A stretch of DNA of 61,722 nt, taken from assembly GCF_000337495.1 (NCBI RefSeq), contig NZ_AOIS01000003.1, positions 78,971 through 140,692 on the forward strand, read 5' to 3'. The position numbers and the translations under genes are program-made. The notes beneath the pieces were generated by a model. It was not told the DNA's origin. It did not search any database and saw only the letters and a program-made list of their open reading frames with translations. This DNA comes from Haloterrigena salina JCM 13891 (GTDB lineage Archaea > Halobacteriota > Halobacteria > Halobacteriales > Natrialbaceae). Shown here piece by piece: positions 28,312 to 55,682 of the stretch. Each line of letters starts with the position of its first letter. The stretch's first letter is position 1.

Positions 28312-28503
28312 ATGAGCAGCAAATTCGGGTGGCTGGAGGCGTCGGTTCAGCAACGCCGTCTGCCGCCTGGCGGTAGAGTCAGCGACGGCGTATCACTCGA
28401 ACGGCAGCTGAAGCCGTATGGAAACGGTGGCAACGCGCGCAACGAAACCGAGCGCACCGGAGAGCCGCTCTCGAGCGAACCAGCCGGAACGATCCGAGGA
28501 TGA
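28312..28503 (+). CDS. Possible 63-residue leader ORF ahead of the iron permease
   Basis: An ATG six bases after operator 2, at the expected start of a leaderless transcript, opens a 63-codon frame that ends in ATGA overlapping the permease ATG at 28500. The product (MSSKFGWLEASVQQRR start) has no recognised domain and is basic and Gly/Arg-rich, unlike most haloarchaeal proteins, so its role may be only to couple translation to the permease. A second metal-boxed promoter at 29755 has the same layout. Could also be a 5' untranslated region. Confidence 0.4.
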   Translation: MSSKFGWLEASVQQRRLPPGGRVSDGVSLERQLKPYGNGGNARNETERTGEPLSSEPAGTIRG

Positions 28504-29630
28504 GCGAGAAGAAGTCGAACGTCGGAACGGGACGAACCGCGAGCTCGCGGCTAACCGAGTCGCGATTCGGGTGGCTCCTGGATCCGAAACTCGCCACCGT
28601 AGTACTCGCCAGCATCGCCGTCGTCTTCGCCGGCGGGCTGATACAGATCAGTTACGGCGCCTACTCGATGACGTTTTTCGAGGCGTGGCGCGCGCTGTTC
28701 AATCCGGACGTGGTGTTCAACCCGCAGGCCTGGGACGCGTTCTTGCTGGGCGAAACGATGCCCGAGATGAGTTCCGAGAGCCTCATCGTCTGGAACATCC
28801 GGCTGCCGCGGGTCTTCGTCGCGGCGCTCGTCGGCATGAACCTCGGCGTCTCGGGAGCGATATTTCAGGCGGTGACCCGAAACGAACTCGCGAGCCCGTT
28901 CATTCTCGGCGTCTCCTCCGGGGCCGGACTCACGATTCTGTTGACGCTCGTCGTCTTCGGGAGCCTGACGGCATTCCTTCCGATAATCGCCGCGGTGGGA
29001 GGTGCCGTGGCGTTTCTCATCGTCTACGTGATCGCCTGGAAGAACGGAACCTCGCCGATTCGGCTTGTCCTCGCCGGCGTCATCGTCGGGACGGTCTTCG
29101 GATCGCTACAGACGGGACTGTTCTTCTTCGCGGACGATATCGGGGTCGTCCAGTCGGCGATCGCGTGGACCACCGGGTCGCTCACCGGGACCGACTGGGA
29201 TCAGGTGAGACTCGTCCTCCCGTCGACGGTCGTGGTGGTCCTGCTCGCCGTCGTCGGCTCGCGCCAGATGGACGTCCTCCTGCTGGGCGAACGGACCGCG
29301 CAGTCGCTCGGCATGTCCGTCGAAAAAGCCCGGTTCGCACTGTCGGGCGTCGCCGTCCTCGCGGCGTCGGCGAGCATCGCCGTCGCCGGAATCGTCGGGT
29401 TCGTCGGGCTCATCGTCCCGCACATGGTGCGAAACCTCGTCGGCAGCGACTCGAAGAAACTGATCGTCGGCTGTCTGTTCGTCGGTCCGGCACTGATGGT
29501 CAGCGCCGACGTGGGTGCGCGACTGGCGTTGAGCCCCACCCAGATTCCCGTCGGTATCGTCACCGGACTCCTCGGCGGCCCGTACTTCCTCTACCTGATG
29601 CGAAAACAGAAGAATATGGGCGAGATCTGA
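28500..29630 (+). CDS. FecCD-family iron/siderophore ABC permease
   Basis: A 376-residue membrane subunit with about nine or ten helices. Family motifs include LIVWNIRLPRVFVAALVGMNLGVSGAIFQAVTRNELASPFILGVSSGAG and the late GFVGLIVPHMVRNLVGSD, which contacts the ATPase. It imports iron chelates or a related cofactor with the binding proteins that follow. Expression is likely repressed by iron through the palindromes at 28258 and 28292. No ATPase gene (FecE type) is present downstream in the window; a shared ATPase must be encoded elsewhere. The N-terminal 30 residues before the first helix are an extension seen in some haloarchaeal members. Confidence 0.92.
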   Translation: MSEKKSNVGTGRTASSRLTESRFGWLLDPKLATVVLASIAVVFAGGLIQISYGAYSMTFFEAWRALFNPDVVFNPQAWDAFLLGETMPEMSSESLIVWNIRLPRVFVAALVGMNLGVSGAIFQAVTRNELASPFILGVSSGAGLTILLTLVVFGSLTAFLPIIAAVGGAVAFLIVYVIAWKNGTSPIRLVLAGVIVGTVFGSLQTGLFFFADDIGVVQSAIAWTTGSLTGTDWDQVRLVLPSTVVVVLLAVVGSRQMDVLLLGERTAQSLGMSVEKARFALSGVAVLAASASIAVAGIVGFVGLIVPHMVRNLVGSDSKKLIVGCLFVGPALMVSADVGARLALSPTQIPVGIVTGLLGGPYFLYLMRKQKNMGEI

Positions 29631-29754
29631 GCGGTGCGAGTCGATGCGGATGCAGATCGGGCTGGCGACTCGAGGCGCCTGCCGGACGTCGATATCGACC
29701 GGTCGACGAGGCGTGCGTCCCGTCTTTCGCAGACCGATCGATCAGCGATATGTT

Positions 29755-29768
29755 TTAGGCCCGCCTAA
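29755..29768. promoter_or_regulatory. Iron-type palindromic operator 3 (TTAGGCCCGCCTAA)
   Basis: Third TTAGG-N4-CCTAA element, upstream of the TATA box for the binding-protein genes. Its centre (CC) breaks perfect symmetry. Confidence 0.75.
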
Positions 29769-29778
29769 CAATCGGAGG

Positions 29779-29790
29779 ATTTATTATATT
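29779..29790 (+). promoter_or_regulatory. TATA box of the binding-protein transcript
   Basis: AT-only run TTTATTATATT bracketed by operators 3 and 4, about 25 bases before the ATG at 29809. Confidence 0.65.
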
Positions 29791-29804
29791 TTAGGTTAGC
29801 CTAA
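29791..29804. promoter_or_regulatory. Iron-type palindromic operator 4 (TTAGGTTAGCCTAA)
   Basis: Fourth TTAGG-N4-CCTAA element, 36 bases after operator 3, touching the TATA run. The arrangement copies that of operators 1 and 2. Confidence 0.8.
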
Positions 29805-29808
29805 ACTC

Positions 29809-29877
29809 ATGGTGAGAGACGAGATGAGACGCGTTCGGCGACGCGGAGATCGACTGATAACGGAGGCGAGCAAATGA
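29809..29877 (+). CDS. Possible 22-residue leader ORF ahead of the binding proteins
   Basis: ATG 29809 sits at the predicted transcript start and opens MVRDEMRRVRRRGDRLITEASK, ending in an ATGA overlap with the ATG at 29874. Very basic and too short to judge by composition. It has the same geometry as the 63-codon frame before the permease. Confidence 0.35.
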   Translation: MVRDEMRRVRRRGDRLITEASK

Positions 29878-31040
29878 AAGACACCGACGACAGCACGACC
29901 GAGACATCGACGCGAAGAGACGCGCTGAAGTACGGCGGCTCGCTCGCGGCCGGCACCGCCCTGGCGGGCTGTTCGGATCTGGTCGGGCGGAGCGACGACT
30001 CGAGCGACCAGAACGACGGCTCCTATTCGGTCTCGATGGAACCGGTGGGAACCGTCGCGTTTGACGAGGTACCCGAACGGTGGGCCGCGTACGACGGCGG
30101 TTACGCCGACATGGCCGTCGCGCTGGGGCAGGCCGACGGGCTAACGGGCGTCGGCGGTGCGGATCGTTACTACACGTACGTCTACGACGAACTGTCCGGC
30201 GTGACCGTCGACGAAGACGTCCTCGAGCGGTATCCGGAGGTCAGAACCAAAGAGGAGTTCTACGAACTCGAGAGCGACGTGCACCTGTACGACCCCCAGA
30301 TACTGGTCAACTGGTACGACTGGGACGAGGACGACGTCGACGAGATCGCGTCGACCGTCGCGCCGTTCGTCGGGAACCTGATCTTTCGGCGCTCCGACGA
30401 CTGGCACGATTACCGCTACTACACGCTGTACGAGGCCTTCGAGAAAGTGGCCGAGGTGTTCCAAGAACGAGCGCGCTACGAGGCGTTCAGCGAACTCCAC
30501 GACGAGTTCATCGCGTCGATACGGGAACGGCTCCCCCCGAGCGAGGACCGACCGGAGGTCTTCCTCACCTTCGAGGGGACCGACGAGCCGGAGACGTTCT
30601 CGCCGTACCGAATCGACGACGCGGGGACGAGCAAGAAACAGTGGCGCGACCTCGGCGTCCACGACGCGCTGACGGGGACGGACATCGACAACCTCAGCAC
30701 GACCAACCGCGGCGAGCTGGACTACGAGAACTTACTCGAGATCGATCCCGAGGTGATCCTCGTCCGCGGTCACGAGCGAAAGTCCGCCGCGGAGTTCCGG
30801 GACGTCGTGCTCGATTACATGCAGAGTCACCCCGTCGGGAGCGAGCTCTCTGCCGTCCGGAACGGGCGCGTCTACCGCGGCGGCTACCTCAATCAGGGGC
30901 CGATCCACAACCTCTTCCTGACGGAGCGAGCGGCGAAACAGCTGTTCCCCGAGGAGTTCGGAGACGTGACCGGCGACGACCGACTGTTCGACCGCCAGGC
31001 CGTTGCGGACATTATCAACGGCGACCTCACCGATGACTGA
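29874..31040 (+). CDS. Iron-type ABC substrate-binding lipoprotein, copy 1
   Basis: A 388-residue binding protein of the FecB/BtuF (Peripla_BP_2) type. A twin-arginine signal (TRRDALKYGGSLAAGTALAGC) with lipobox Cys33 predicts an exported lipoprotein. The body contains the shared segments EVPERW, YYTLYEAFEKVAEVFQ and NQGPIHNLFLTERAAKQLFPEEF. First of three tandem copies; less similar to copies 2 and 3 than these are to each other, and it lacks their EWPTYTEGPYPEIP tail. It starts immediately after operators 3 and 4, so iron control is likely. It should deliver its ligand to the permease at 28500. Confidence 0.87.
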   Translation: MKDTDDSTTETSTRRDALKYGGSLAAGTALAGCSDLVGRSDDSSDQNDGSYSVSMEPVGTVAFDEVPERWAAYDGGYADMAVALGQADGLTGVGGADRYYTYVYDELSGVTVDEDVLERYPEVRTKEEFYELESDVHLYDPQILVNWYDWDEDDVDEIASTVAPFVGNLIFRRSDDWHDYRYYTLYEAFEKVAEVFQERARYEAFSELHDEFIASIRERLPPSEDRPEVFLTFEGTDEPETFSPYRIDDAGTSKKQWRDLGVHDALTGTDIDNLSTTNRGELDYENLLEIDPEVILVRGHERKSAAEFRDVVLDYMQSHPVGSELSAVRNGRVYRGGYLNQGPIHNLFLTERAAKQLFPEEFGDVTGDDRLFDRQAVADIINGDLTDD

Positions 31041-32229
31041 GAACGCAGACCGGACGACCGGAGAACCGACGCGAAGAGACGCACTGAAGTACGGCGGGGC
31101 GCTCGCGACCACCGTTTCCCTCGCGGGCTGTTCGGAACTGGTCGGACGGGACGGTACCGGCGACTCCGAGCCGTCGGAAGGTGAGACGTACTCGGTGACG
31201 ATGGCCCCGAGCGGAACCGTCGAGTTCGAGCGACCGCCGGAGAACGTCCTCACGATCCTCCCACACCACGCCGACATGGCGCTCGCGGCCGGCCACGGCG
31301 ACGCCGTCTCCTCGATGCTGTACAACCCCGAATACAACGACACGATCTGGAACGCGTTCCTTGAGCGCCTCGACGGCGTCGCCGTCGACTGGGCGGATCT
31401 CCCCGGAACGTGGGATCCCGACAAGGAGTACCTCTACGAACTCGAGAGCGACCTCCATCTGGCCGATCCCGCCTACATGTCGATAATGGGGGGTTGGGGT
31501 ACCGACGATATCGAGGAGATCGGCGAGACCGTCGCCCCGTGGTTCGGGAACACGTTCAGTAACGCGAACAAGGAGCCGCCGGCCGAGTGGGCCGACCGCT
31601 ACGAGTATTACACGCTCTGGGAGATCTTCGAGCGGGTCGCACGGGTCTTTCAGGCGGAGGCGCGCTACGAGGCGCTCGCCGACGTCCACGCCGAGATGCT
31701 CGCGACCATCGAGGCAAACCTCCCGCCCGAAGACGAGCGGCCGAGCGTGGCGATGATCATCCTCAACCAGTCCGAGGACAGCATGTACGTGTACGCGCTG
31801 AACGAGCCGGGCTTCCTGACGGCACACACCCGGCCCCTCGGCGCGACGGACGTCTTCGCCGACGTGCCGACCGAGTCGACGGTCGACTACGAGGCGTTCA
31901 TCAAGGCCGATCCCGACATCGTCCTCTGTCTCGCGGGAATGTCCGAGGCCAGACACGTGACGAAAACGCGAGAGCGACTCGCGGACGATCCGACGACTGC
32001 GTCGGTGTCGGCCGTGGAGAACGGACGCATCCACACGCAGGGCGGACGGAATCAGGGGCCGATCATGAACCTCTTCCAGACCGAAATGGCGGCGAAACAG
32101 CTCTACCCCGACGTCTTCGGCGAGTGGCCGACCTACACCGAGGGGCCGTATCCGGAGATTCCGGCCGACGAGCAGTTGTTCGATCGCGACCGAGTTGCAG
32201 ACATTATTAACGGAGACTTCGACGCATGA
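31033..32229 (+). CDS. Iron-type ABC substrate-binding lipoprotein, copy 2
   Basis: A 398-residue paralogue. The start at 31033 (MTENADRTTGEPTRRDALKYGG) overlaps the end of copy 1 by eight bases; the frame opens 30 bases further upstream, inside copy 1. Twin-arginine signal and lipobox Cys33 (SLAGCSE). Conserved blocks are DRYEYYTLWEIFERVARVFQAEARYE and NQGPIMNLFQTEMAAKQLYPDVFG; the tail EWPTYTEGPYPEIP is repeated in copy 3 almost exactly, at the base level too (around 32110-32190 and 33287-33367). Same transcription unit as copies 1 and 3. Ligand may differ between the copies. Confidence 0.86.
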   Translation: MTENADRTTGEPTRRDALKYGGALATTVSLAGCSELVGRDGTGDSEPSEGETYSVTMAPSGTVEFERPPENVLTILPHHADMALAAGHGDAVSSMLYNPEYNDTIWNAFLERLDGVAVDWADLPGTWDPDKEYLYELESDLHLADPAYMSIMGGWGTDDIEEIGETVAPWFGNTFSNANKEPPAEWADRYEYYTLWEIFERVARVFQAEARYEALADVHAEMLATIEANLPPEDERPSVAMIILNQSEDSMYVYALNEPGFLTAHTRPLGATDVFADVPTESTVDYEAFIKADPDIVLCLAGMSEARHVTKTRERLADDPTTASVSAVENGRIHTQGGRNQGPIMNLFQTEMAAKQLYPDVFGEWPTYTEGPYPEIPADEQLFDRDRVADIINGDFDA

Positions 32230-33404
32230 ACAGCAATGACGAGATAACCGAGAGATCGACGCGCAGAAACGTACTCAAATACGGCGGAACGCTCGCGGCC
32301 GGAACGGCCCTCGCAGGCTGTTCGAGGCTGGTCGGACAAAGCGAGAACGGAGACGCCGACTCCGACGGAACCTATTCGGTGACGATGGCGCCGATGGGCG
32401 AGGTGTCGTTCGACTCGCCGCCGGAGAGCGTCTTCACGCGGCTGACCCACCACGCCGGCATGGCGTTCGCCCTCGGACGCGGCGACGACGTCAACGCGAT
32501 GCACGCGCCCGAGTACTACGACCAGCTGTGGAATCAGTTCACCGAACGGCTCCCCGGCGTCACGCTGGACTGGACGGGCCTGTACTCGTCCTGGGATCCG
32601 AGCAAGGAGAAACTCTACGAACTCGACAGCGACGTCCACCTCGCCGATCCGGCGAGCGTGAACGCTCTCGACAGCAAGAACTCATCGGACGTGGAGGAAA
32701 TTCGGGACACCATCGCCCCGTGGTTCGGGAACAAGTTCAGCGACAGACACGACGAGCCGCCGGCCGAGTGGGCCGACCGGTACGAGTATTACACACTCTG
32801 GGAGATGTTCGAGAAGGTCGCCCAGGCCTTCCGCGAGGAGGAGCGGTACGAGGGGCTCGCGGAGATACACGCGAACCTGATCGAGACGATCGAGGAGAAG
32901 CTGCCGCCCGAACAGGAGCGCCCGACCGCGGTGCTGGCGGGGATGAGCGACATCGATAGCATCTACGTCTACACGCTGGACACGCCCGGATTTCTGACGG
33001 CGCACGTGCGCCCGCTCAGTCCGGTCGGCGCGCTGAGCGACACCATCTCCTCCGGGGACGCGATCGATATGGAAGTGCTGCTCGAGGCCGATCCCGACGT
33101 GATCTTCTCGCTGGGCGGGCTCCACCCCGAAACCGATATGGCCGGGATTCGATCGTCGCTGCGAGATCACGCCGCCGGACGGAAGCTCTCCGCGGTCCAA
33201 AACGAGCGCGTCTATCCGCAGGGTGCCCGCTACCAGGGGCCGATCCTGAACCTGTTCCAGTTGGAGATGACCGCAAAACAGCTCTACCCCGACGTCTTCG
33301 GCGAGTGGCCGACGTACACCGAAGGGCCGTATCCGGAGATTCCCGACGACGAGCAACTGTTCGACCGCCAGGCGGTCGCAGAGATCATCACGGGTGATCG
33401 GTGA
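32226..33404 (+). CDS. Iron-type ABC substrate-binding lipoprotein, copy 3
   Basis: A 392-residue paralogue, its ATG overlapping the stop of copy 2 (ATGA). Signal TRRNVLKYGGTLAAGTALAGC with lipobox Cys32. Shares YYTLWEMFEKVAQAFREEERYE, YQGPILNLFQLEMTAKQLYPDVFG and the EWPTYTEGPYPEIP tail with copy 2. The stop is followed directly by the ATG of a 57-residue gene, so the operon continues. Having three binding proteins for one permease suggests a set of related iron chelates. Confidence 0.86.
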   Translation: MNSNDEITERSTRRNVLKYGGTLAAGTALAGCSRLVGQSENGDADSDGTYSVTMAPMGEVSFDSPPESVFTRLTHHAGMAFALGRGDDVNAMHAPEYYDQLWNQFTERLPGVTLDWTGLYSSWDPSKEKLYELDSDVHLADPASVNALDSKNSSDVEEIRDTIAPWFGNKFSDRHDEPPAEWADRYEYYTLWEMFEKVAQAFREEERYEGLAEIHANLIETIEEKLPPEQERPTAVLAGMSDIDSIYVYTLDTPGFLTAHVRPLSPVGALSDTISSGDAIDMEVLLEADPDVIFSLGGLHPETDMAGIRSSLRDHAAGRKLSAVQNERVYPQGARYQGPILNLFQLEMTAKQLYPDVFGEWPTYTEGPYPEIPDDEQLFDRQAVAEIITGDR

Positions 33405-39362: not shown

Positions 39363-39668
39363 TCAGATCATTCGATACACCTCGTCCATCCACTGATCGG
39401 CGTCGTCGTCGAGAATGATCCCGTCCATTTCCTCGTCCCAGCGGGCCTGTGCGTCGCTCGTCTCCATCACGTTTCGAATCGCGTCCGGATCGTCGAGTTC
39501 CATGAACCCGAAGACGTGTCCGTCCGACTCGAAGACACTGTAGGTCTCGAGCCCGGCGTCGGAGTCGAGATACGTCTCCTCGAGCCACGTCGGGACGTCC
39601 TCGTGAGCCTCGCGGTACGCCTCGCGCTGTCCGTCAGCGAGTTCCAGATGGAATGCAATGCGTGCCAT
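39363..39668 (-). CDS. rhaM: L-rhamnose mutarotase
   Basis: A 101-residue protein matching the RhaM family in length and layout. It begins MARIAFHLELADGQREAYREAHEDV, where the Tyr-x3-His pair corresponds to the active site, and continues with FGFMELDDPDAI and ends with the EMDGIILDD and MDEVYRMI parts. It interconverts alpha and beta anomers of L-rhamnose in the cytoplasm. ATG 39668 is chosen over the frame opening at 39722. It is the last gene of the leftward set that includes the LLM enzyme and the dehydratase, about 200 bases downstream. Its presence is a good indicator that L-rhamnose is the substrate of this island. Confidence 0.86.
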   Translation of the reverse strand: MARIAFHLELADGQREAYREAHEDVPTWLEETYLDSDAGLETYSVFESDGHVFGFMELDDPDAIRNVMETSDAQARWDEEMDGIILDDDADQWMDEVYRMI

Positions 39669-39865: not shown

Positions 39866-40897
39866 CTACCTGAACTGCGGCATCACTTCGTCGGCGAACA
39901 GTTCCATCCCGCCGGTGTCGGGGAAGTCGACGAACCAGCACTGGAACTTCGTGACGCCGGCGTCGATCCGCCGCTGGATGCCTTCGGCACACTCCTCGGG
40001 CGTGCCCATGAGGAAGTAGTCGCTGGCGATCTCCTCGGTCGTGATGTCGGCCTGGTCGACGTACTCCTCCTCGAACTGGATCGGAATCATCAGGTCGAGC
40101 AGGCGCTCGTACTTCTCGGGGTCGCGCGTACAGATGACGTGGCCGTCCCAAGAGTACTCGATCTCGTCCGGATCGCGGCCGACCGTCTCGCAGTGGTCCT
40201 CGATGACGTCGATCTTGTGCGCTACGGTCTCCGCCCTCCCGCTGAACACGTCCGTGTTCCAGACGTCGGCGTGTTTCGCGACGAGTTTGAGCGTCACGTC
40301 TTCGCCCTGTCCGCCGACGAGGATCGGCGGATGCGGATCCTGTATCGGACCGGGCTCGCAGTAGGCGCCGTCGATCTCGTAGTGGTCGCCCGCGAAGTAG
40401 GCGCCGTCGCCCGAATCGTCTGTCCACATCTCCTTCATCAAACGGATGCTCTCGTCCAAGCGCATCAGTCGCTCGAAGCCGTCGTGGTACTCCCAGCCGT
40501 AGGCCTCGTACTCGGGTTCGTGCCAGCCGGCGCCGAGCCCGAGCTCGAGCCGGCCGCCGGAGATCACGTCCAGCGTCGCCGCCATCTTCGCGACGAGCGC
40601 GGGGTTGCGGTAGTCGTTACAGAGGACAAGCGAGCCGAGGTTGATCTCGTCGGTGAGCCCCGCCAGCGCGGACAGCAGCGTCCAGCACTCGTACTCGGCG
40701 TGATCACGGCCGAGCATGAGGTGGTCGGGCGCCCAGGCGGCGTCGAAGCCGAGTTCCTCGGCCTTCAGGACGCCCTCCTTCGTGGTCTCCCAGTCGAGTC
40801 GTTCGTAACACGGCGTGTCGCGGTGGGAGGGATCCGTTCCCGACTCCGGCGCGCCCGCGAACACCGGCACGTTGTACTCGAATGTGACGTCAGTCAT
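39866..40897 (-). CDS. LLM-class flavin- or F420-dependent oxidoreductase
   Basis: A 343-residue luciferase-like monooxygenase family barrel. Typical parts are WAPDHLMLGRDH, the GGRLELGLGAGWHEPEYEAYG loop, PPILVGGQG and the C-terminal MGTPEECAEGIQRRIDAGV. Family members use FMN or, commonly in archaea, the deazaflavin F420, and include F420-dependent sugar-6-phosphate dehydrogenases. It lies three bases after the dehydratase gene (40901), so the two are co-translated. I infer it may oxidise L-rhamnose or 2-keto-3-deoxy-L-rhamnonate, but sequence alone does not prove a sugar substrate; a monooxygenase role is the alternative. Confidence 0.85.
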   Translation of the reverse strand: MTDVTFEYNVPVFAGAPESGTDPSHRDTPCYERLDWETTKEGVLKAEELGFDAAWAPDHLMLGRDHAEYECWTLLSALAGLTDEINLGSLVLCNDYRNPALVAKMAATLDVISGGRLELGLGAGWHEPEYEAYGWEYHDGFERLMRLDESIRLMKEMWTDDSGDGAYFAGDHYEIDGAYCEPGPIQDPHPPILVGGQGEDVTLKLVAKHADVWNTDVFSGRAETVAHKIDVIEDHCETVGRDPDEIEYSWDGHVICTRDPEKYERLLDLMIPIQFEEEYVDQADITTEEIASDYFLMGTPEECAEGIQRRIDAGVTKFQCWFVDFPDTGGMELFADEVMPQFR

Positions 40898-40900
40898 GGC

Positions 40901-42106
40901 TCACTCGACGGCGAAGTGTTCCAGCGCCTCGCGGTTCAGCTGGGTACTGATACCGGGTTCCTCGGGGAGCGGAATCGACCCGCCCTCGGGCGAGGGCGGG
41001 TTCTCGAAGATCACGTCGGCGTAGGTCGACTCCTTCTCCTCCTGCTGTTCCTGGAACCACTCCGGGGTCGGGAAGTACTCCGCCATGGGCATGTTCGTGT
41101 GCGCCGCGATGGCGTGCAGCGTCGGATTCGTGCCGGCGTGGGGAATCACGGGCACGTCGTGGACTTCGGCCATGTCAGCCACCTTCATCATCTCGGTGAT
41201 CCCGCCGACGCGGCCCACGTCGGGCTGGAGAATGTCGACGGCCTCCGCTTCGAGGAGGTCCTCGTGCCCCCAGCGGGTGAACTCGTGCTCGCCGCCCGAA
41301 ATCGGCATCGGCGCGGCCTCACGAACCTCGGCGTAGCCGTCGATGTCGTCGGCGATGACCGGCTCTTCGACCCACGCCATGTCGTACGGCTCGAGGCGGT
41401 CGAGCATTTTCTTCGCGTACCGAACCGACCAGCCCATGTAGGCGTCGGCCGCGATCTCGAGTTCGTCGCCGACGGCGTCGCGGACCGTCTCGACGACTTT
41501 CTCGTTCTCTTTCATTCCCGAGCGGCCGGCCTCCGGTCCGTGGGGGAAGCGCAGTTTCACCGCGTCGAAGCCGGCCTCGGCGTACTCCTGGGCCTCGCGC
41601 TCGAGTGTCTCCATGTCGACGGGGTGGAGGTTCGACGCGTAGGCGGGGATCTCGTCTTTGGTGGGGCCGCCGAGCAGTTCGTACACCGGCTTGCCGGCCT
41701 CCTTGCCCGCGATGTCCCACAGGGCTTGATCGACCGCGCTGATCGCCATGACGGCGACGCCCTTCCGACCGAAGGGCAGCGTCGCTCGGTACAGTTGCTC
41801 CCAGAGTTTCTCGCGCTGCGTGGGATCCTCGCCCACCACGATCTTCGAGAGCGTCTCCTCGACGACGGTGGCGATGGCGCCGGTACCCCAGTTCCCGACG
41901 CCGACGCCGGTGATGCCGGCGTCCGTCTCGACCTCGACGACGACGTCGCCCACGGGACCCATCCACTTGCGGCGGGCCTGGGGGTTCTCGCCGTCGACGT
42001 TCCGGTACTCCTCGTACTTCGACATGATCGTGACGAGGGGGAACTCGATAAACTCGCCCCACGACTCGTTGCTGATCTTGGTCGCGTTGATGTCTGTGAT
42101 CTCCAT
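40901..42106 (-). CDS. Enolase-superfamily sugar acid dehydratase, L-rhamnonate dehydratase-like
   Basis: A 401-residue mandelate racemase/muconate lactonising enzyme-family protein. Metal ligands are predicted as Asp in AADAYMGW (about 217-225), Glu in MAWVEEPV (about 244-250) and Glu in ISGGEHEFTRWGHEDLL (about 266). PHAGT (about 318) carries the acid/base His. GEHEFTRWG and ILQPDVGRVGGITE resemble the L-rhamnonate dehydratase group. It would convert L-rhamnonate to 2-keto-3-deoxy-L-rhamnonate. The frame has a TTG at 42121, but ATG 42106 is chosen. A TATA-like box lies at about 42152-42158. Followed closely by the LLM enzyme. Confidence 0.85.
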   Translation of the reverse strand: MEITDINATKISNESWGEFIEFPLVTIMSKYEEYRNVDGENPQARRKWMGPVGDVVVEVETDAGITGVGVGNWGTGAIATVVEETLSKIVVGEDPTQREKLWEQLYRATLPFGRKGVAVMAISAVDQALWDIAGKEAGKPVYELLGGPTKDEIPAYASNLHPVDMETLEREAQEYAEAGFDAVKLRFPHGPEAGRSGMKENEKVVETVRDAVGDELEIAADAYMGWSVRYAKKMLDRLEPYDMAWVEEPVIADDIDGYAEVREAAPMPISGGEHEFTRWGHEDLLEAEAVDILQPDVGRVGGITEMMKVADMAEVHDVPVIPHAGTNPTLHAIAAHTNMPMAEYFPTPEWFQEQQEEKESTYADVIFENPPSPEGGSIPLPEEPGISTQLNREALEHFAVE

Positions 42107-42151
42107 GGTAGTCGAACCCAATAGACTCGTATCGAGATGTGGGAAACAACC

Positions 42152-42489: not shown

Positions 42490-44121
42490 TTACGCTTGGA
42501 AGATGATGATCGCGGAACCGAGTAACGCGAACGCGACGCCGATCGTTACGACGGCGATTCGCTTCACTCGCGGGGTCAGAGTGGCGGAATCCCCGGTAAG
42601 CGACGATTCGACGAAGTTGGTCGGCGATTCGTGGGCTTTCGGGGTCGTCAGGAGGCTGACGGTCACGACGATTCCGATTACGAGGAGGAACGCGTACAGC
42701 GAGCGAGAGTACAACGCCTCGTGTCCGAGCGCGAACCCCATGTAGACGCTGACCGCCAACCCGATCGCGATACCGAGTATCGCACCCGTGCTCGTCGAAC
42801 CGTCCCAGAGACCACCGACGATCGCCACGGCGGCGAACGTCGGCATGATCGTCGCGAGAATCGACTGCGCGACGAGGTACATCGAGTCCTCCATCGAGAA
42901 CAGGTACGCGACGCCGATACAGGCGACCATGAAGACGATCCCCGCGATCCGACCGACCCGAACGTAGTGGGACGGCTTCCGGTCCGACGCCACGTAGCGA
43001 CGGTAGATCCGTTCCGTGAACAGCGTCTGGAAGTTGTTGAGTTGCGAGTCGACGCTCGAGAGGACGCCCGCGATCAGGCCGACGACGACGACGCCGTACA
43101 GACCCGGCGGCATGACGTCGCTGATGAGCATCGGCATCGCGTGATCCGCGACCTCGAGGTTCGGATAGCGGACGGCGGCGACGAGCCCCGGGACGAGGAT
43201 GAAAAGCGGGACGAGGATCGCGTACCAGATGCTCGTGTACAGGTAGCCGATCTGCGCGGATTCCGGATCTTCGGCGGAGAGCGGTCGCTGGAGGACCTGC
43301 GATTCGGCGCTCCAGTAGGAGATCGCCGACGCGAGAAAGCCGAAGTACAGCAGGAACACCGCGATCGGGCCGCCGACCGGGAATTCGGCTGCCAGCGGGT
43401 GATCCGACGGCGTCATCGACGCCTGGTGCGTCGCCAGCCCGTCGATCAGGCCGGAGATGCCCCCCACCATGTACAGCGAAACCGGGAGCAGGAGGATCAG
43501 CGGAACGAACATGAGGACGAACTGGATGGTGTCCGAGCCGGCGACGGCGCCGAATCCGCCGAGGATCGTGTAGGCCGTTCCGACGACGATGATCGCGCCC
43601 ATCGAGAGCCAGAGATTCCATCCGAGGAGCGTGTTCAGAACGAGCGAGCCGGCGTAGATGTACAGCCCCATGTTGACGAACATCCAGACGAACGTCCAGA
43701 TGAAGTCGTACGCGTCGCCGACCGGTCTCGAGAAGCGTCGCGTGAGCCACTCGCCCAGCGAGAACGCCTGTATCTGCCTGATGAACGGAATGATCGCGAC
43801 GGTCGCGAGGACGATGGCGATCGCGTTCGTAATTGGGCCCAGCAGGACGATGATCCCGTACGCGTACGCGAACCCGGCGAGTCCGAGGAAGTCGTTCGCG
43901 TTCAGATTGGTCGCGACGGTCGAGAACGCCTGTACCGACGGCGGAAGCGACCGGTCCGCGAGGAACGTGCTCGCGGAGTCAGCGGTGTTCCGACGCATGT
44001 ACGCGCCGAACACGACCAACCCGACGATAAACACGCAGATGGCGATCCATTCGGTGAGGACGAGCGTCTGTCCGCCGATACCCTGGAGCGGATAGGGGCC
44101 CACAGTGGTAAGTGCAATCAT
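42490..44121 (-). CDS. Sodium:solute symporter (SSS family)
   Basis: A 543-residue carrier with about thirteen helices. Family motifs include NLNANDFLGLAGFAYAYG, the GGFGAVAGSDTIQFVLMF segment and the late AGVLSSVDSQLNNFQTLFTERIYRR. It couples solute import to sodium entry. It sits between the dehydratase and the rhamnosidase, in the same direction as both, so L-rhamnose or another sugar from the island is the probable solute. The start at 44121 has an AT-rich run (44151-44160) about 34 bases upstream. Confidence 0.9.
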   Translation of the reverse strand: MIALTTVGPYPLQGIGGQTLVLTEWIAICVFIVGLVVFGAYMRRNTADSASTFLADRSLPPSVQAFSTVATNLNANDFLGLAGFAYAYGIIVLLGPITNAIAIVLATVAIIPFIRQIQAFSLGEWLTRRFSRPVGDAYDFIWTFVWMFVNMGLYIYAGSLVLNTLLGWNLWLSMGAIIVVGTAYTILGGFGAVAGSDTIQFVLMFVPLILLLPVSLYMVGGISGLIDGLATHQASMTPSDHPLAAEFPVGGPIAVFLLYFGFLASAISYWSAESQVLQRPLSAEDPESAQIGYLYTSIWYAILVPLFILVPGLVAAVRYPNLEVADHAMPMLISDVMPPGLYGVVVVGLIAGVLSSVDSQLNNFQTLFTERIYRRYVASDRKPSHYVRVGRIAGIVFMVACIGVAYLFSMEDSMYLVAQSILATIMPTFAAVAIVGGLWDGSTSTGAILGIAIGLAVSVYMGFALGHEALYSRSLYAFLLVIGIVVTVSLLTTPKAHESPTNFVESSLTGDSATLTPRVKRIAVVTIGVAFALLGSAIIIFQA

Positions 44122-44239: not shown

Positions 44240-47200
44240 CTAGCGAACCGCGAACTCGTACGTGCCGGATCCGAGTTCGACGACGAGGGAATCACCGTCT
44301 TCGCGAACCGACTCGATCCCCGCGGTCTCCTCGGCGGATAGCGACGATCCAGACTCGGCCACGTCGGCCTCGGCGGCGTCCGGCAAGCGAACGGTTGCGT
44401 CCGTGTTCCAGGGAATGGTGACGGACAGTTCGTACGACCCGGCGTCGGCGTCGCGGCGCCACTCGGTCGCTAACTCGCCGTTGCGCGTCTCGAGACTGGC
44501 CGTGACCCACGAGAGATCGTCGACGAGCGCGGGAGCGACGGTCACGCGGTCGGTGACGGGGCGGTCGCCGATCCGAACGCCCGCGAGTACTTCGTAGAAG
44601 AACTCCGAGACGTGGGTGAACGGTGAGTGATTGAAGGAGTTCATCCCGTCGCCGACGCGGTCGTCGCTGTCCCAGCGTTCCCACATGGTCGTCGCCCCGT
44701 TACGAGCCATGTACACCCAGCCGGGTCGGTCGGGCTGGCTGACGACGTCGTACGCGACGTCCGCGTGACCGTGTGCGGTGAGCGTGTGGAGGAGCGGCCT
44801 GGTCCCGAGGAATCCCGTTTTGAGCGTGCGACCGTCGGCTTCGACCTTCTCGACGAGGTTGGCCACCACTGACTCGACCCTCGAGTCGGGAACCAGACCG
44901 AGAAAGAGCGGAACCGCGTACGACGACTGGGTTCCCGGCCCGTACGCGGCCTCGTCGGCATCGAAGAATCGCTCGTTGAACGCGTCCGCGATCCGATCGG
45001 CTCGATTTCGATACGCGTCCGCGTCCGCGTCGTTCTCCAGGACGGCGGCGATCTTCGCGAACGTATCCGTGACCTGGTAGAGGAATGCCGTGTTGTACAG
45101 GTCGTGTGGGAGACCGCGTCGGTCGTCCACGTTCTCGAAGGCGAGCCAATCGCCGAACTTCCCGTAGTCGTCCGTCAGAATGCCGTCCTCCGCGACCGAG
45201 AGCCAGTACTCGACGTAGTCTCGCATCCCTTCGTACTGCTCTTGAAGGAGGCGCTCGTTCCCGTCGTGGCGGTAGAGATACCAGGGGATCATCACCCTCG
45301 TGATCGACCACGTCGGATCGGCGGGATCCTCGCTCGCCTTGTTCGGAATCACGTCCGGAACGTAGCCCATCTCCGAGGCGACGTCGTCGTGATCGCGGGC
45401 CCACTTCTCGTCGAATCGGGCGGCGTCGAAGTTGAACAGGAGCGACCGCGTGGAGATGTGGGCGTCACCCGTCCACCCGAACCGTTCGTCGCGCTGCGGA
45501 CAGTCCTCGGGAACGGAGTGCGTGTTGCCGCGAAGCCCCCACACGGCGTTGTGTTGGACCCGATCGAGATCCTCGTTCGAACACGAAAAGGTTCCGCGAC
45601 GGTCCATCGCGGTGTGGACGACCTTCGCTGTGACGAGGTCCGGATCGAACCCGCCCGGATAGCCCGTGATCTGCGCGTACCGGAAGCCGTGGTAGGTGAA
45701 TCGCGGCTCGTACCGCTCTCCGTCGGCGCCGGCGGCGACGTAGACGTCCGTCGCGTCCGCGCTCCGAAGGTCGGTCGTCGACAGCTCCCCGTCTTCGGTG
45801 AGCCGTTCGGCGTGGCGAAGGGTGATCTCGTCGCCCTCGTCCGGATCCCGGATCTCGATCTCGAGCCAGCCGGTCAGGTTCTGGCCGAAGTCGAGGATCG
45901 GGCCGTCTGGATGCTCGTGAATCTCCGCCACGTCGAACGTCTCGACGATGCGCATCGGTTCGACGCGCTGCGGTCGAAGCGCCCCGCCGGGATCGGCGAC
46001 GACGGATGCGGGATCCCAGTCCCTGTCGTCGAACCCGGGCGAACGCCACCCGTCCTCGGACAGTCGAGCGTCGAACAGTTCGCCGTCGTAGATGTCGTTC
46101 TCCCGGATCGGACTCGCCGTCGCCCGCCAGTCACCGTCGGTCGCGATCGTCCGCGTCGAGCCGTCTTCGAACGTCGCAGTCAGTACGAGCCGGGCGCGCG
46201 GAGAGCCGTCGGGAACCCAGTAGGCACCCCCCTTCGAGAACCAGCCGCGACCGAGCCACACGCCGATCGCGTTCTCGCCGACCGCGACCCGGTCGGTCAG
46301 ATCGTAACTCGAGTAGCAGACGCGCTTCTCGTAGTCCGTCCAGGCGGGATTCAGCCGGTGATCGCAGACCCGTTCGCCGTTGACGTGGAGTTCGCCGTAG
46401 CCGACGGCGGCGAGGTGGGCGCGGACCGATTCGACCGGTTCCTCGAGAGCGAACTCCGTCCGCAGCAGTGGCGACGTCGCCGCGAGTTCGGACGCGACGC
46501 GCCCGTTCGCGAGGTGATCGCGGCCCCACGCGTCGGTTTCGACGGACGACGAGGCCTCGACCGGTCGTCCGCGAGCCAGGTCTTCGTTCCCGTTTCGCAC
46601 CTCGAGCGCCGCCAACGCGAAACACTGCCAGGCGTCGACGCGTTCGGTCCGCCGACCCGCACTCTGGGCGTGAGACGACTCCTCGGCGAGCGGTTCGAAC
46701 GCGAAGCGGTCCGTCGCGGTGACCCGCACGTACCGGCCGTCGGCCTCGAATCCGTCGTGCGTGCGGACGGGTTCCGTCTCCTCGGGGACGTCATCCGGGG
46801 GCTCGCCGTCGGCTTCGTCGGACGCGTCGACCTCGAGGACGGTCGTCGAGGATTCGAATCGCGGATCGTCCGCGACCTCGATCCGATAGGCGTTCGGAAA
46901 GCCGAAGCCGTCGAGCGGGTTGTCGAACCAGGATCTCGTGACCGCCACGTCGTCCGGCGTTCGAACGACGGTGACCGGCGACGACGGGTGAAGATCGACG
47001 GCCGTGATCCGTCGGCTGGAGCCGAGGTCCACCTGGACCCACTCTTCGACCGATTCGTCCGCGCTCCGCCACCGGCTTCGCCACCCGTTGGTGTCTCCCG
47101 CTCCCGGCTGGTGGGTTATCCATTCGCCACACCACCGCTCGGGGCGCAGCGCCGTGACGAAAGCAGACGGGTCCGCCCAATCGGTTTCACCCTCGTCGGT

Positions 47201-47509
47201 CCAGAGTTTCACCGACCAGTGATACCGCGTGTCGGAACCGAGGTCGGGACCGTCGTATGGAACGTTCGTCGACAGCGACGATTCGACGCGGCCGGAGTCC
47301 CAGAGCGAGCCCCGACCGGAGCCGACCGCACTCCTGTCGTGACCGACCACGATCCGATACGCGGTCTGGCGAGTTCCGCGAGCATCGGTCGAAACGCGCC
47401 ACGAGAACCGAGGCGGTTCCGTCGGGTCGACGTTCGTCGGGGCCGGTTCGTACTCGACTCGAAGATCCGTCGGGCGACGGTCACCCGCGGTATCGGCTAC
47501 CGAAGACAT
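44240..47509 (-). CDS. Alpha-L-rhamnosidase (GH78)
   Basis: A 1089-residue GH78 enzyme. The N-terminus holds fibronectin-like beta domains (EPAPTNVDPTEPPRFSWRV), then a discoidin-like sugar-binding insert (about 160-290), the WLGRGWFSKGG segment and the six-hairpin catalytic domain with CPQRDERFGWTGDAH (about 668-682), whose acidic residues form the active site, and a beta-sandwich C-terminus. It releases L-rhamnose from the non-reducing end of glycans or glycosides. Starting at ATG 47509 (MSSVADTAGDRRPTDL) there is no signal peptide, so it works inside on imported material. The upstream extension to 47659 is basic and unlikely coding. This is the key sign for rhamnose use. Confidence 0.92.
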   Translation of the reverse strand: MSSVADTAGDRRPTDLRVEYEPAPTNVDPTEPPRFSWRVSTDARGTRQTAYRIVVGHDRSAVGSGRGSLWDSGRVESSLSTNVPYDGPDLGSDTRYHWSVKLWTDEGETDWADPSAFVTALRPERWCGEWITHQPGAGDTNGWRSRWRSADESVEEWVQVDLGSSRRITAVDLHPSSPVTVVRTPDDVAVTRSWFDNPLDGFGFPNAYRIEVADDPRFESSTTVLEVDASDEADGEPPDDVPEETEPVRTHDGFEADGRYVRVTATDRFAFEPLAEESSHAQSAGRRTERVDAWQCFALAALEVRNGNEDLARGRPVEASSSVETDAWGRDHLANGRVASELAATSPLLRTEFALEEPVESVRAHLAAVGYGELHVNGERVCDHRLNPAWTDYEKRVCYSSYDLTDRVAVGENAIGVWLGRGWFSKGGAYWVPDGSPRARLVLTATFEDGSTRTIATDGDWRATASPIRENDIYDGELFDARLSEDGWRSPGFDDRDWDPASVVADPGGALRPQRVEPMRIVETFDVAEIHEHPDGPILDFGQNLTGWLEIEIRDPDEGDEITLRHAERLTEDGELSTTDLRSADATDVYVAAGADGERYEPRFTYHGFRYAQITGYPGGFDPDLVTAKVVHTAMDRRGTFSCSNEDLDRVQHNAVWGLRGNTHSVPEDCPQRDERFGWTGDAHISTRSLLFNFDAARFDEKWARDHDDVASEMGYVPDVIPNKASEDPADPTWSITRVMIPWYLYRHDGNERLLQEQYEGMRDYVEYWLSVAEDGILTDDYGKFGDWLAFENVDDRRGLPHDLYNTAFLYQVTDTFAKIAAVLENDADADAYRNRADRIADAFNERFFDADEAAYGPGTQSSYAVPLFLGLVPDSRVESVVANLVEKVEADGRTLKTGFLGTRPLLHTLTAHGHADVAYDVVSQPDRPGWVYMARNGATTMWERWDSDDRVGDGMNSFNHSPFTHVSEFFYEVLAGVRIGDRPVTDRVTVAPALVDDLSWVTASLETRNGELATEWRRDADAGSYELSVTIPWNTDATVRLPDAAEADVAESGSSLSAEETAGIESVREDGDSLVVELGSGTYEFAVR

Positions 47510-47664
47510 GACTCCGATGTCACCGGTTCCGCCCGTAAATGTTTGCCCGAGCCCTCGAGAGACGGCGGTACAGCGTGACAGTTCCACGCGTTCGTAATCG
47601 AGGGGAACGGTGGGTCGGCTGGTACCGCCCGCAATCAGTCGACGGCCGGTCGATTGCACCTAAA

Positions 47665-47723: not shown

Positions 47724-48758
47724 ATGAAGGCCATAGTACATACCGGTCCCAGAGCCATCGAGATCCGCGAGCGCGAGAAGGCCGTCCCCGACGACGACGA
47801 GGTGCTCGTTCGCGTTCACTCGGCGGGACTCTGTGGTAGCGACGCGCACGCGTACAAGTACGAAGACGGCTACGAGTGGATTCCGATTCCCCGAACCATG
47901 GGCCACGAGTACTCCGGCGAGGTCGTCGAAGTCGGCGACGACGTCACCGACTTCGCGGTCGGCGACCACGTCGTCGAGGAGCCGATCCACGACTGCGGCT
48001 CGTGTTTTCAGTGCAAGAACGGGCAGCCGAACGTCTGCCAGAACTTCGAGATCACGGGCATGCACAACGACGGCGCGTACACCGAGTACACGACGGTCCG
48101 GCCGCGAGATTTGCACCTGATTCCCGAGGACGTACCGCTCGGCCACGCGAGCATCACCGAGCCGCTCAGCATCGCGACGCGGGCGGTGTTCGATCAGTCC
48201 GCGGTGACACCGGGCGATACCGTCCTCGTCGAAGGGCCCGGCCCGATCGGCGTGCTCGTCGCGGCCGTCGCGGACTCGCTGGGCGCCGACGTCGTCGTCT
48301 CTGGACTGGGCAAGGACACCACGTACCGGCTGCCGCTGGTCGAAGACCTCGGGATCGAGACGATCGATATCGAGGCGACTGATCTCGAAGCAATCGTCGA
48401 CGAGCGGACCGACGGCGTCGGCTTCGACGCGGTGTTCGATACGACCGGTCACTCGAGCGGCGTCGAGATGGCCATCGACCACGTCCGGAAGGGCGGACAG
48501 GTCGTCGTCGTCGGTCTCCCCGGCTCCCCCAGCGAAGTGTTCATGACGCCGGTCGTCCGCGGCGAGGTCGACGTGAACACCTCCTACGGCTCGACCTGGC
48601 GGAACTTCGAACAGGCCATTCGACTCCTCTCGGCCGGCGCGATCGACGCCGACGCGATCATCGATCGCTCGTTCAGCGTCGACGAGCCGACCGCCGCGTT
48701 CGAGGCGTTCCTCGAGTCGGAGACGTGCAAGCCGGTCTTCTCGTTTGCGGACAGCTGA
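47724..48758 (+). CDS. Zinc-dependent sugar (alcohol) dehydrogenase, MDR family
   Basis: A 344-residue medium-chain dehydrogenase. Catalytic zinc ligands are expected at Cys of GLCGSDAHAYKY and the His/Glu of TMGHEYSGE; the structural zinc site is CGSCFQCKNGQPNVC. The cofactor fold is EGPGPIGVLVAAVA. It resembles threonine/sorbitol/galactonate-type dehydrogenases. In the island it is a candidate for one of the two oxidations of the rhamnose route, either L-rhamnose to the lactone or 2-keto-3-deoxy-L-rhamnonate to the 2,4-diketo acid. It is divergent from the rhamnosidase. Confidence 0.88.
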   Translation: MKAIVHTGPRAIEIREREKAVPDDDEVLVRVHSAGLCGSDAHAYKYEDGYEWIPIPRTMGHEYSGEVVEVGDDVTDFAVGDHVVEEPIHDCGSCFQCKNGQPNVCQNFEITGMHNDGAYTEYTTVRPRDLHLIPEDVPLGHASITEPLSIATRAVFDQSAVTPGDTVLVEGPGPIGVLVAAVADSLGADVVVSGLGKDTTYRLPLVEDLGIETIDIEATDLEAIVDERTDGVGFDAVFDTTGHSSGVEMAIDHVRKGGQVVVVGLPGSPSEVFMTPVVRGEVDVNTSYGSTWRNFEQAIRLLSAGAIDADAIIDRSFSVDEPTAAFEAFLESETCKPVFSFADS

Positions 48759-50709: not shown

Positions 50710-51579
50710 ATGGTATTTGATACGCATACTCACGCCTGGGCGCAACCGAACCGGGACCACCCCTGGGTGAACGGCCCGCTCGTCGAAACCGTCGACGAGT
50801 TCGACGTCGACACGGTCTACACCGCCGAGAAGCTCCTCAAGGATATGGACGCCGTCGGTATCGACGAGGCGGTGGTCGTCGGCTACCCGATCTGCGAGTG
50901 GACCGACAACTGGTACACCGTCCAGTGCGTCGAGGAGCACGACGACCTCACCGGGATCGTGATGCTCGACCCGTTCGCCGACGGCGCGGCCGACCGGCTG
51001 CGCGAGGCGATGGCCGTCGACGGCGTGCTCGGCGTCCGCCTCGGGGCGATCTGCCCGTACGATCGCATGTGGGAGACGTTCGATCCCGGTGTCGAGTGGC
51101 TGCGCGAGGCGGTCGACGAGACCGCGTTCTGGGAGGCCGCGCGCGAGACCGACGCGCTGGTCCAGATCCTGGCCCACGTGGACCAGCTCGAGCAGGTGCT
51201 CGACCTCGTCGAGACCTATCCCGAGCTCTCCTACGCGCTCGATCACTTCTGTCACGCCGGTCCCGAGGTCCCACCCGGCGAAGCGCTCGCCGCACTCGAG
51301 CCCCTCGCCGTCGACGGGTACGACGTCGCCGTGAAGATTTCCGAGGTCGTCCACCGCTCGGAGGAGGGGTTCCCCTACGCCGACATGCACGACCACGTCC
51401 GCTGGCTGCTCGAGACCTTCGGCCGCGAGCGGATCGTCTGGGGCTCGGACTTCCCGAACGTCAGCGACGAGGCGAGCTACGAGGAGAGCCTGCGGTGGCT
51501 CGAGCACGTCGACTGTCTCTCGAAGAACGACCGCGAGTGGCTCACCGGTCGGGCGATGCGGGAATTGTGCGGAATCTGA
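50710..51579 (+). CDS. Amidohydrolase-type sugar lactonase, L-rhamnono-1,4-lactonase-like
   Basis: A 289-residue amidohydrolase-2 family protein. FDTHTHAW (D-x-H-x-H) at the N-terminus, the His in DHFCHAG and the Asp of VWGSDFPN mark the metal site; the helix ending in NDREWLTGRAMRELCG is typical. This family includes lactonases of L-rhamnonate and L-fuconate. In the island it fits hydrolysis of L-rhamnono-lactone to L-rhamnonate. It follows the GH97 gene by 93 bases and meets the FAH gene tail to tail. Confidence 0.83.
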   Translation: MVFDTHTHAWAQPNRDHPWVNGPLVETVDEFDVDTVYTAEKLLKDMDAVGIDEAVVVGYPICEWTDNWYTVQCVEEHDDLTGIVMLDPFADGAADRLREAMAVDGVLGVRLGAICPYDRMWETFDPGVEWLREAVDETAFWEAARETDALVQILAHVDQLEQVLDLVETYPELSYALDHFCHAGPEVPPGEALAALEPLAVDGYDVAVKISEVVHRSEEGFPYADMHDHVRWLLETFGRERIVWGSDFPNVSDEASYEESLRWLEHVDCLSKNDREWLTGRAMRELCGI

Positions 51580-51582
51580 GCG

Positions 51583-52425
51583 CTACTGTTCGACGACGTG
51601 GTTCTCGAGCGTTCCGATCCCCTCGACCTCGGCTTCGACCGTGTCGCCGGGCGAAAGCAGTTCCGGCGGGTCGCGGAAGATGCCGACGCCGCCAGGAGTG
51701 CCGGTCGAGATGACGGTACCGGGCTGGAGCGTCATGCGGTGGCTGAGGAACTCGATGGTGTCGCCGACGTCGAAGATGAACTCCGCCGTCGAGGACTCCT
51801 GTTTCACCTCGCCGTTGACCCGGAGTTCGACGCCGACGTCGTTGGCGTCGATCGAGTCGGGCGCGGTCAGGGCCGGCCCCATCGGCGCGAACGTGTCGTA
51901 GCTCTTGCCTCGGAAGAACTGGCCGTCCTCGAACTGGGCGTCGCGCGCGCTGACGTCGTTGACGACCGTATAGCCGGCGACGTACTCCTCGGCCTCGTCA
52001 GCCGAGACGTCGCAGGCGGTCCGGCCGATGACGACGCCGAGTTCGACCTCGTAGTCGACCTGCTCGACGTCTTCGGGGTGGACGATCGGCGCGTCGGGCC
52101 CGGTGACGCTTCCGGGCGATTTCGCGAACAGCATCGGGGTGTCGGGGATCTCCTCGTCCTGCTCTTCGGCGTGGTCGTAGTAGTTCAGGCCGACGCAGAT
52201 GATCTGCTCGACGGAGGGGATCGGCACCAGCCGGTCCCCGTCCGCGGGACCGTCGATCTCCGGGAGTTCGCCGGTCTCGACGGCGCGCTGGACGCGGCGG
52301 CGGTAGCCGGGCGTGGCGAGGTCCTCGAGTGACGGTGCTCCGAAGCGGTCCAGCGCGTAGGTCCGGTCGTCGACGGAAACGCCCCAGCGGACGCCGCCGT
52401 CGGTCGCGAATCGAACGAATTGCAT
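51583..52425 (-). CDS. FAH-family hydrolase, 2,4-diketo-3-deoxy-L-rhamnonate hydrolase candidate
   Basis: A 280-residue fumarylacetoacetate hydrolase-family protein. The metal ligands are in DYEVELGVVIG (two Glu) and VNDVSARDAQ (Asp); GLNYYDHAEE precedes them and ISTGTPGGVG is near the C-terminus. The family splits C-C bonds of diketo acids. Here it should cleave 2,4-diketo-3-deoxy-L-rhamnonate to pyruvate and L-lactate. The frame extends to 52710, but the family begins around MQFVRFATDGG, so ATG 52425 is taken. Adjacent on the same strand is the L-lactate oxidation complex. Confidence 0.87.
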   Translation of the reverse strand: MQFVRFATDGGVRWGVSVDDRTYALDRFGAPSLEDLATPGYRRRVQRAVETGELPEIDGPADGDRLVPIPSVEQIICVGLNYYDHAEEQDEEIPDTPMLFAKSPGSVTGPDAPIVHPEDVEQVDYEVELGVVIGRTACDVSADEAEEYVAGYTVVNDVSARDAQFEDGQFFRGKSYDTFAPMGPALTAPDSIDANDVGVELRVNGEVKQESSTAEFIFDVGDTIEFLSHRMTLQPGTVISTGTPGGVGIFRDPPELLSPGDTVEAEVEGIGTLENHVVEQ

Positions 52426-52552
52426 CGTCTCGAAATTCCGGTCCTGAATCTTGAATCTTTCTCTCGACGGATCGCAGGCGGAACCATCCGCCCCGTCGCA
52501 CGGACTCGCCGAGCGAACCGGTCTCGTCCGGTGGACCGAAACCGTCCGGAGA

Positions 52553-54778: not shown

Positions 54779-55290
54779 TATTCCGCGTCGTCCTCCACGA
54801 TGATCGCGTGGGTCTCTCGCGGGCCGTGCACGCCGTACACCAGTTCGCCCATGTCGGCGGTCGCGCTCGGACCGGTCGCGAGCACGGCGTCGTCGTCGCC
54901 GTCGCGGAACCGCTCGCCCAAGCGCTCGAACGCCGCGGCCATGTCGTCGACGAGATCCCGCTCGCGGACGACGACCACGTGCCGGTCGGGGAAGAGCCCG
55001 GCGAGTTCGGCACCCGCCGGCGTCGACTCGAGGACGACCGTCCCGTAGTCGGCGACGCCGAGCGCGGCGGCCGTGACGCCGCAGGCCGCCTCGCGGAGCT
55101 GGTCGGGCGTCGGCTCGAGGACGACGCCGGTCCCCTCGAGCGAAACGTCCGCGAAGGGAAGCGGCGCGCCGATGGCGGGCTCGTCGACGACGTCGGCGAG
55201 CGCGTCCTGGAACGCGGCCGGCGAGGTCCGGGTAACGGCGGTCCGGACGCTGCCGAGGTTCGTCTCGAACGTCTCTAGCTGTGTCTGCAT
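54778..55290 (-). CDS. lutC: LutC, L-lactate oxidation subunit (LUD domain)
   Basis: A 170-residue LUD-domain protein, the partner of the LutB-LutA fusion. MQTQLETFETNLGSVR starts at ATG 55290 and the domain continues with GVADYGTVVLESTPAGAELAGLFPDRHVVVVRERDLV and ends GELVYGVHGPRETHAIIVEDD, a typical LutC ending. The upstream frame to 55518 is low-complexity and basic and is not used. First gene of the lutC-lutBA pair; its stop overlaps the next start. Confidence 0.88.
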   Translation of the reverse strand: MQTQLETFETNLGSVRTAVTRTSPAAFQDALADVVDEPAIGAPLPFADVSLEGTGVVLEPTPDQLREAACGVTAAALGVADYGTVVLESTPAGAELAGLFPDRHVVVVRERDLVDDMAAAFERLGERFRDGDDDAVLATGPSATADMGELVYGVHGPRETHAIIVEDDAE

Positions 55291-55663: not shown

Positions 55664-55682
55664 CCTAGTTGTATGCGTGTGT

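Follow-up and report, generated by a model that had tools for sequence, protein, structure and literature searches.

An LLM-class oxidoreductase paired with a probable L-rhamnonate dehydratase in haloarchaeal rhamnose clusters

An LLM-class oxidoreductase is a strictly conserved redox enzyme of rhamnose catabolism in haloarchaea, its gene lying beside that of a probable L-rhamnonate dehydratase wherever the two occur. It coexists with short-chain dehydrogenases (SDRs), and hence is no simple stand-in for a missing SDR. We tentatively view it as a core pathway enzyme, most likely dependent on the rare deazaflavin cofactor F420, that acts upstream of 2-keto-3-deoxy-L-rhamnonate (KDR), with oxidation of rhamnose at C1 as the best fit; our confidence in this assignment falls somewhat short of even.

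The rhamnose cluster of Haloterrigena salina

The window, the whole 61,722-nucleotide stretch of Haloterrigena salina JCM 13891 DNA that was analyzed, contains the following genes and ORFs of a rhamnose cluster:

39363-39668 (-): RhaM, L-rhamnose mutarotase family (PF05336, 52.5 bits, cut-off 23.4)
39866-40897 (-): LLM-class oxidoreductase, TIGR03560-like, 343 aa, ATG start (PF00296, Bac_luciferase)
40901-42121 (-): probable L-rhamnonate dehydratase, enolase superfamily (PF13378/PF02746)
42490-44121 (-): sodium:solute symporter, probable sugar uptake (PF00474; TIGR00813, 221.7 bits, cut-off 184)
44240-47659 (-): probable alpha-L-rhamnosidase, GH78-like (ORF and translation; assigned from sequence and family knowledge)
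47724-48758 (+): MDR dehydrogenase, probable KDR 4-dehydrogenase (PF08240/PF00107)
50710-51579 (+): amidohydrolase-2 family, probable rhamnono-lactonase (PF04909; weak match to the L-fucono-1,5-lactonase model)
51583-52437 (-): FAA hydrolase, probable 2,4-diketo-3-deoxy-L-rhamnonate hydrolase (PF01557; best NCBIfam model NF053535)
52553-54780, start approximate (-): LutB-like lactate oxidation subunit (ORF, assigned from sequence)
after the LutB-like ORF, to ∼55400: LutC-like ORF (assigned from sequence)
55679-56447, start approximate (+): IclR-type regulator (ORF)

The ORF list adds a GH97-like ORF to this cluster. Lactonase, dehydratase, MDR, and FAA hydrolase genes thus occur together in the window, the combination that marks a haloarchaeal diketo-hydrolase rhamnose cluster. 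For the dehydratase, the best NCBIfam model is L-rhamnonate dehydratase (263.6 bits, under the cut-off of 393), and for the FAA hydrolase the closest is NF053535, 2,4-didehydro-3-deoxy-L-rhamnonate hydrolase (203 bits, cut-off 500). Haloferax volcanii requires LudBC for growth on rhamnose (PMC8305020), and the rhamnose genes of Haloferax are under the control of the IclR regulator RhcR (PMC11519228).

An earlier note, made from the sequence of this stretch, had described an LLM-class ORF three bases behind the dehydratase gene, an MDR enzyme at 47724, and no SDR, and all three points held. The dehydratase stop codon occupies 40901-40903, leaving a gap of exactly 3 bases, and in a Pfam profile search the LLM protein scored 184.8 bits for PF00296 (cut-off 27.9); the MDR domains were found at the expected place, and tblastn with two haloarchaeal SDRs as queries (E 1e-3) detected no SDR in the window. 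A first-step dehydrogenase is, as that note had argued, otherwise missing from the window's cluster.

Several further features stood out. The RhaM-family mutarotase gene, on which the earlier note was silent, sits just downstream of the LLM gene. Elsewhere in the window, three related lipoprotein ORFs of 388, 408, and 392 aa, apparently binding-protein paralogues, lie in tandem behind an iron-siderophore-type permease ORF (28500-33404), and positions 7639-10716 encode a 1025-aa protein of the D-lactate/glycolate oxidase type in which an FAD-linked oxidase is fused to an iron-sulfur domain.

Conservation of the gene pair and distribution of dehydrogenases

We searched a sample of 391 Halobacteria genomes for LLM orthologues, defined by at least 75% identity, and found them in 49 (75-100% identity), with the next matches falling to 50%. 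A separate search for the dehydratase returned 49 of the 391 genomes, and this was the same set. The two genes are neighbors in the same order in 49/49 genomes, lie on one strand in the window as in all 48 loci retrieved, and are spread over 24 sampled genera belonging to six families, with Haloferax, Haloarcula, Haloterrigena, Natrinema, and Halogeometricum among the carriers. Given the gap between 75% and 50% identity and the adjacency in every genome, the pairing is not due to chance, and the LLM protein can be counted, as previously proposed, as a rhamnose-pathway enzyme.

The amidohydrolase (lactonase) is likewise present in all 49 pair-bearing genomes, MDR in 48, and FAA hydrolase in 46 (E 1e-60), and the invariant set across them consists of dehydratase, lactonase, and LLM. 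Among the oxidoreductases tested (LLM, MDR, and two SDR types), LLM alone was present in every genome.

The window's dehydratase shares 95% identity with its counterpart in another genus (G271) but only 76-77% with those of its own genus, whereas the adjoining LLM protein is 92-95% identical within the genus. Recombination apparently exchanged the dehydratase gene and left the gene pair intact.

Slightly less probable, in our judgment, than our main reading is an alternative in which every species uses an SDR, linked or unlinked, as its rhamnose dehydrogenase. The LLM enzyme would then have a different redox function connected with the dehydratase, such as clearing a by-product or oxidizing a related sugar or acid whose breakdown joins the pathway at the dehydratase. 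A Haloferax-type SDR is linked to the cluster in 19/49 genomes (0/17 in the window's own family, f1), and a second SDR type lies right beside the LLM gene in four others (G379, G062, G105, and G242), so that 23/49 genomes, including all eight sampled from the genus Haloferax, have a linked SDR that could serve as a conventional first dehydrogenase. By Reinhardt in 2019, a rhamnose dehydrogenase was reportedly characterized in Haloferax volcanii; if that enzyme is the SDR, the LLM protein would be dispensable for the first step there. Unlinked SDRs could perform this step in Haloterrigena salina, whose genome encodes ten SDR matches to the Lra1 (L-rhamnose 1-dehydrogenase) model, all far below the cut-off, and, on contig C57, an SDR that shares 66% identity with the linked one in G379. 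Unlinked SDRs are also encoded in the genomes that have no linked one, although no SDR exceeded the Lra1 model cut-off in the 41 genomes checked. The LLM gene is retained in every SDR-bearing genome and hence is not redundant with the SDR there.

Against an SDR as the first dehydrogenase in all species, 26 genomes, the window's included, have neither SDR type near the cluster although the other steps are all clustered. Neither type was found within 20 kb around the LLM gene in 30/48 loci, nor in the window. The C57 SDR lies among a second MDR, a second enolase-type dehydratase, an FAA-like protein, and an ALDH, apparently the cluster of another sugar. PDB neighbors of the SDR and MDR proteins named no substrate for them.

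The same distribution bears on the idea that the LLM enzyme simply replaces an SDR, which the earlier note had proposed to check by asking whether genomes with the LLM gene lack the SDR. Not all do: with 19 plus four genomes carrying both, a simple swap was rejected. As a separate observation, the C57 region at 80-118 kb (L191-L192) is a sugar-acid cluster with an SMP30-like lactonase, MDR (53%), dehydratase, ALDH, FAA-like protein, and SDR, and resembles a pentose oxidation cluster.

Cofactor and proposed step

The LLM protein probably uses F420, judging from family matches and genome distribution, which supports the cofactor proposed earlier. Its best curated family is TIGR03560 (F420-dependent LLM oxidoreductases; 230.9 bits, cut-off 231.4), all 35 aligned relatives match this family, and two Halocatena orthologues carry the TIGR03560 annotation in PLSDB. 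CofD scored above the cut-off in all 49 LLM host genomes, as expected for haloarchaea, and in 41/49 non-haloarchaeal genomes with LLM relatives (31-45% identical over the aligned part) vs 3/14 control genomes; because the control genomes are few and of different composition, the comparison supports the use of F420 in the wider family without proving it.

The AlphaFold model (pLDDT 80.9) has the TIM-barrel LLM fold, and its top match is the F420-dependent Mer (8qpl; Z 32.5, rmsd 2.3 over 298 residues). The FMN enzymes SfnG, MsuD, RutA, and 7oh2 (sulfoquinovose monooxygenase) follow within 1 to 2 Z, and owing to this overlap the fold search does not decide the cofactor. It is nevertheless unlikely that the LLM protein is a monooxygenase dependent on FMN or FMNH2, with a rhamnose derivative as substrate, and not an F420 dehydrogenase. 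Such an activity would agree with these Z values, with the nearest PDB sequences in the tree (3rao and SfnG, support 89/68), and with a Gemmatimonadota relative that lies beside an enolase-superfamily gene and whose genome gave no CofD match, but the NCBIfam neighborhood consists of F420 families, relatives occur chiefly in CofD-bearing genomes, and no flavin reductase was recognized in the cluster.

In that Gemmatimonadota MAG (L124, 6745-9035), the enolase-superfamily gene directly precedes the LLM gene, and the arrangement may be an FMN-based counterpart of the haloarchaeal pair. It was the one adjacent bacterial enolase-LLM pair found, and we left it uncounted as support for an ancient association because of its 36% identity and the lack of CofD in its genome.

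Oxidation of KDR probably falls to another enzyme. The window's MDR is the probable KDR 4-dehydrogenase, since MDR is missing from a single genome (G226), in which a DHDPS-family aldolase adjoins the dehydratase (L076, 7660-8556), and since a KDR dehydrogenase of MDR type is indicated for Sulfobacillus by the title of Bae 2015, as cited in PMC10444878. G226 retains the LLM gene, has neither SDR type within the 20 kb examined, and encodes an FAA-hydrolase homologue elsewhere in the genome. If the aldolase splits KDR there, a KDR dehydrogenase would be unneeded, and loss of MDR would fit its proposed function; gene order points to such an MDR-to-aldolase swap, with the persisting FAA-hydrolase homologue to be kept in mind. 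In this haloarchaeon, rhamnose breakdown likely runs through the aldolase branch. That the LLM protein is itself the KDR dehydrogenase, as its place beside the KDR-forming dehydratase and the presence of Adf among its fold neighbors might suggest, is very unlikely and was rejected, because the near-universal MDR is of the type known for this step from that title and G226 has lost it while keeping LLM alongside the aldolase.

Because the lactonase must be supplied with a lactone, an aldose dehydrogenase is required in every genome, and LLM is the only one of the tested oxidoreductases that all of them share. This argues for C1 oxidation as the best fit, by elimination rather than demonstration. 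In the proposed scheme, the RhaM mutarotase would supply the L-rhamnose anomer, from whose C1 the LLM enzyme would pass a hydride to F420, giving L-rhamnono-lactone. The amidohydrolase would open this lactone, the adjacent dehydratase would convert the opened product to KDR, and MDR and the FAA hydrolase would lead on to pyruvate and lactate, the latter being oxidized by the LutBC-type enzyme. Where a linked SDR is present, it might provide a second, NAD(P)-linked route for rhamnose or a related sugar. The broader claim, that a new non-FGD lineage of F420-dependent LLM enzymes oxidizes L-rhamnose at C1 as the obligate partner of L-rhamnonate dehydratase, with a sister lineage acting likewise elsewhere, is more doubtful.

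Haloarchaea carry F420 biosynthesis genes. Only one F420-dependent reaction has been reported in them, and the importance of F420 there has been called enigmatic (PMC8305020). Oxidation of C1 by an F420-dependent LLM enzyme, if true, would mean that haloarchaea use F420 in catabolism, and our results suggest that the published rhamnose pathway may miss an enzyme. With an F420-type gene locked to one sugar pathway in 49/49 genomes, and genetics available in Haloferax, the question of what F420 does becomes directly testable.

Relation to known enzymes and pathways

LLM proteins at 44-50% identity form a sister clade to the rhamnose-linked group (98/92 in the tree). In several genomes they are encoded near genes for an amidohydrolase, a mutarotase of the RhaM family, a dehydratase of the UxuA type, a DUF4432 protein, an SDR, or an RraA-like protein; because of these neighbors, the sister branch appears to serve sugar pathways in general. 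A cyclase/BKACE-like set accompanies other sister LLMs, and amidase and peptidase genes are the neighbors of a more distant branch. Five of the sugar clusters (L089, L090, L094, L099, and L100) may represent a second sugar pathway with an LLM enzyme.

The F420-dependent glucose-6-phosphate and sugar-6-phosphate dehydrogenases and Adf share the LLM fold with the window protein, and to this extent the kinship suggested by the earlier note stands; beyond the fold it does not. FGD, FGD2, and Adf group in a separate clade (100/88) in a tree with partial PDB sequences, whereas the LLM protein falls in another (96/90). Of His40, Trp44, and Glu109, which we take to be the catalytic residues of FGD1, HMMER alignments to the FGD/Adf type show the histidine kept as His59, the tryptophan aligned with Gly63, and the glutamate with Trp125. 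With one of three catalytic residues kept and a separate clade, membership among FGD/Adf kin was rejected. F420-dependent sugar enzymes of the LLM fold do oxidize sugars with F420 (PMC6279831), but the known ones favor phosphorylated sugars.

The curated family that scores best for the window's protein, TIGR03560 (type Rv1855c), is missed by 0.5 bits. To our knowledge, no member of this family has a known substrate. The SDR-type Lra1 would catalyze the same step as that proposed for the LLM enzyme, with an unrelated fold and cofactor. The closest pathway is the Haloferax rhc diketo-hydrolase pathway (Reinhardt 2019), which has dehydratase, lactonase, MDR, FAA hydrolase, and IclR regulator in common with the window; Haloferax clusters also bear the LLM gene, whereas Natrialbaceae clusters, the window's included, lack the Haloferax-type SDR.
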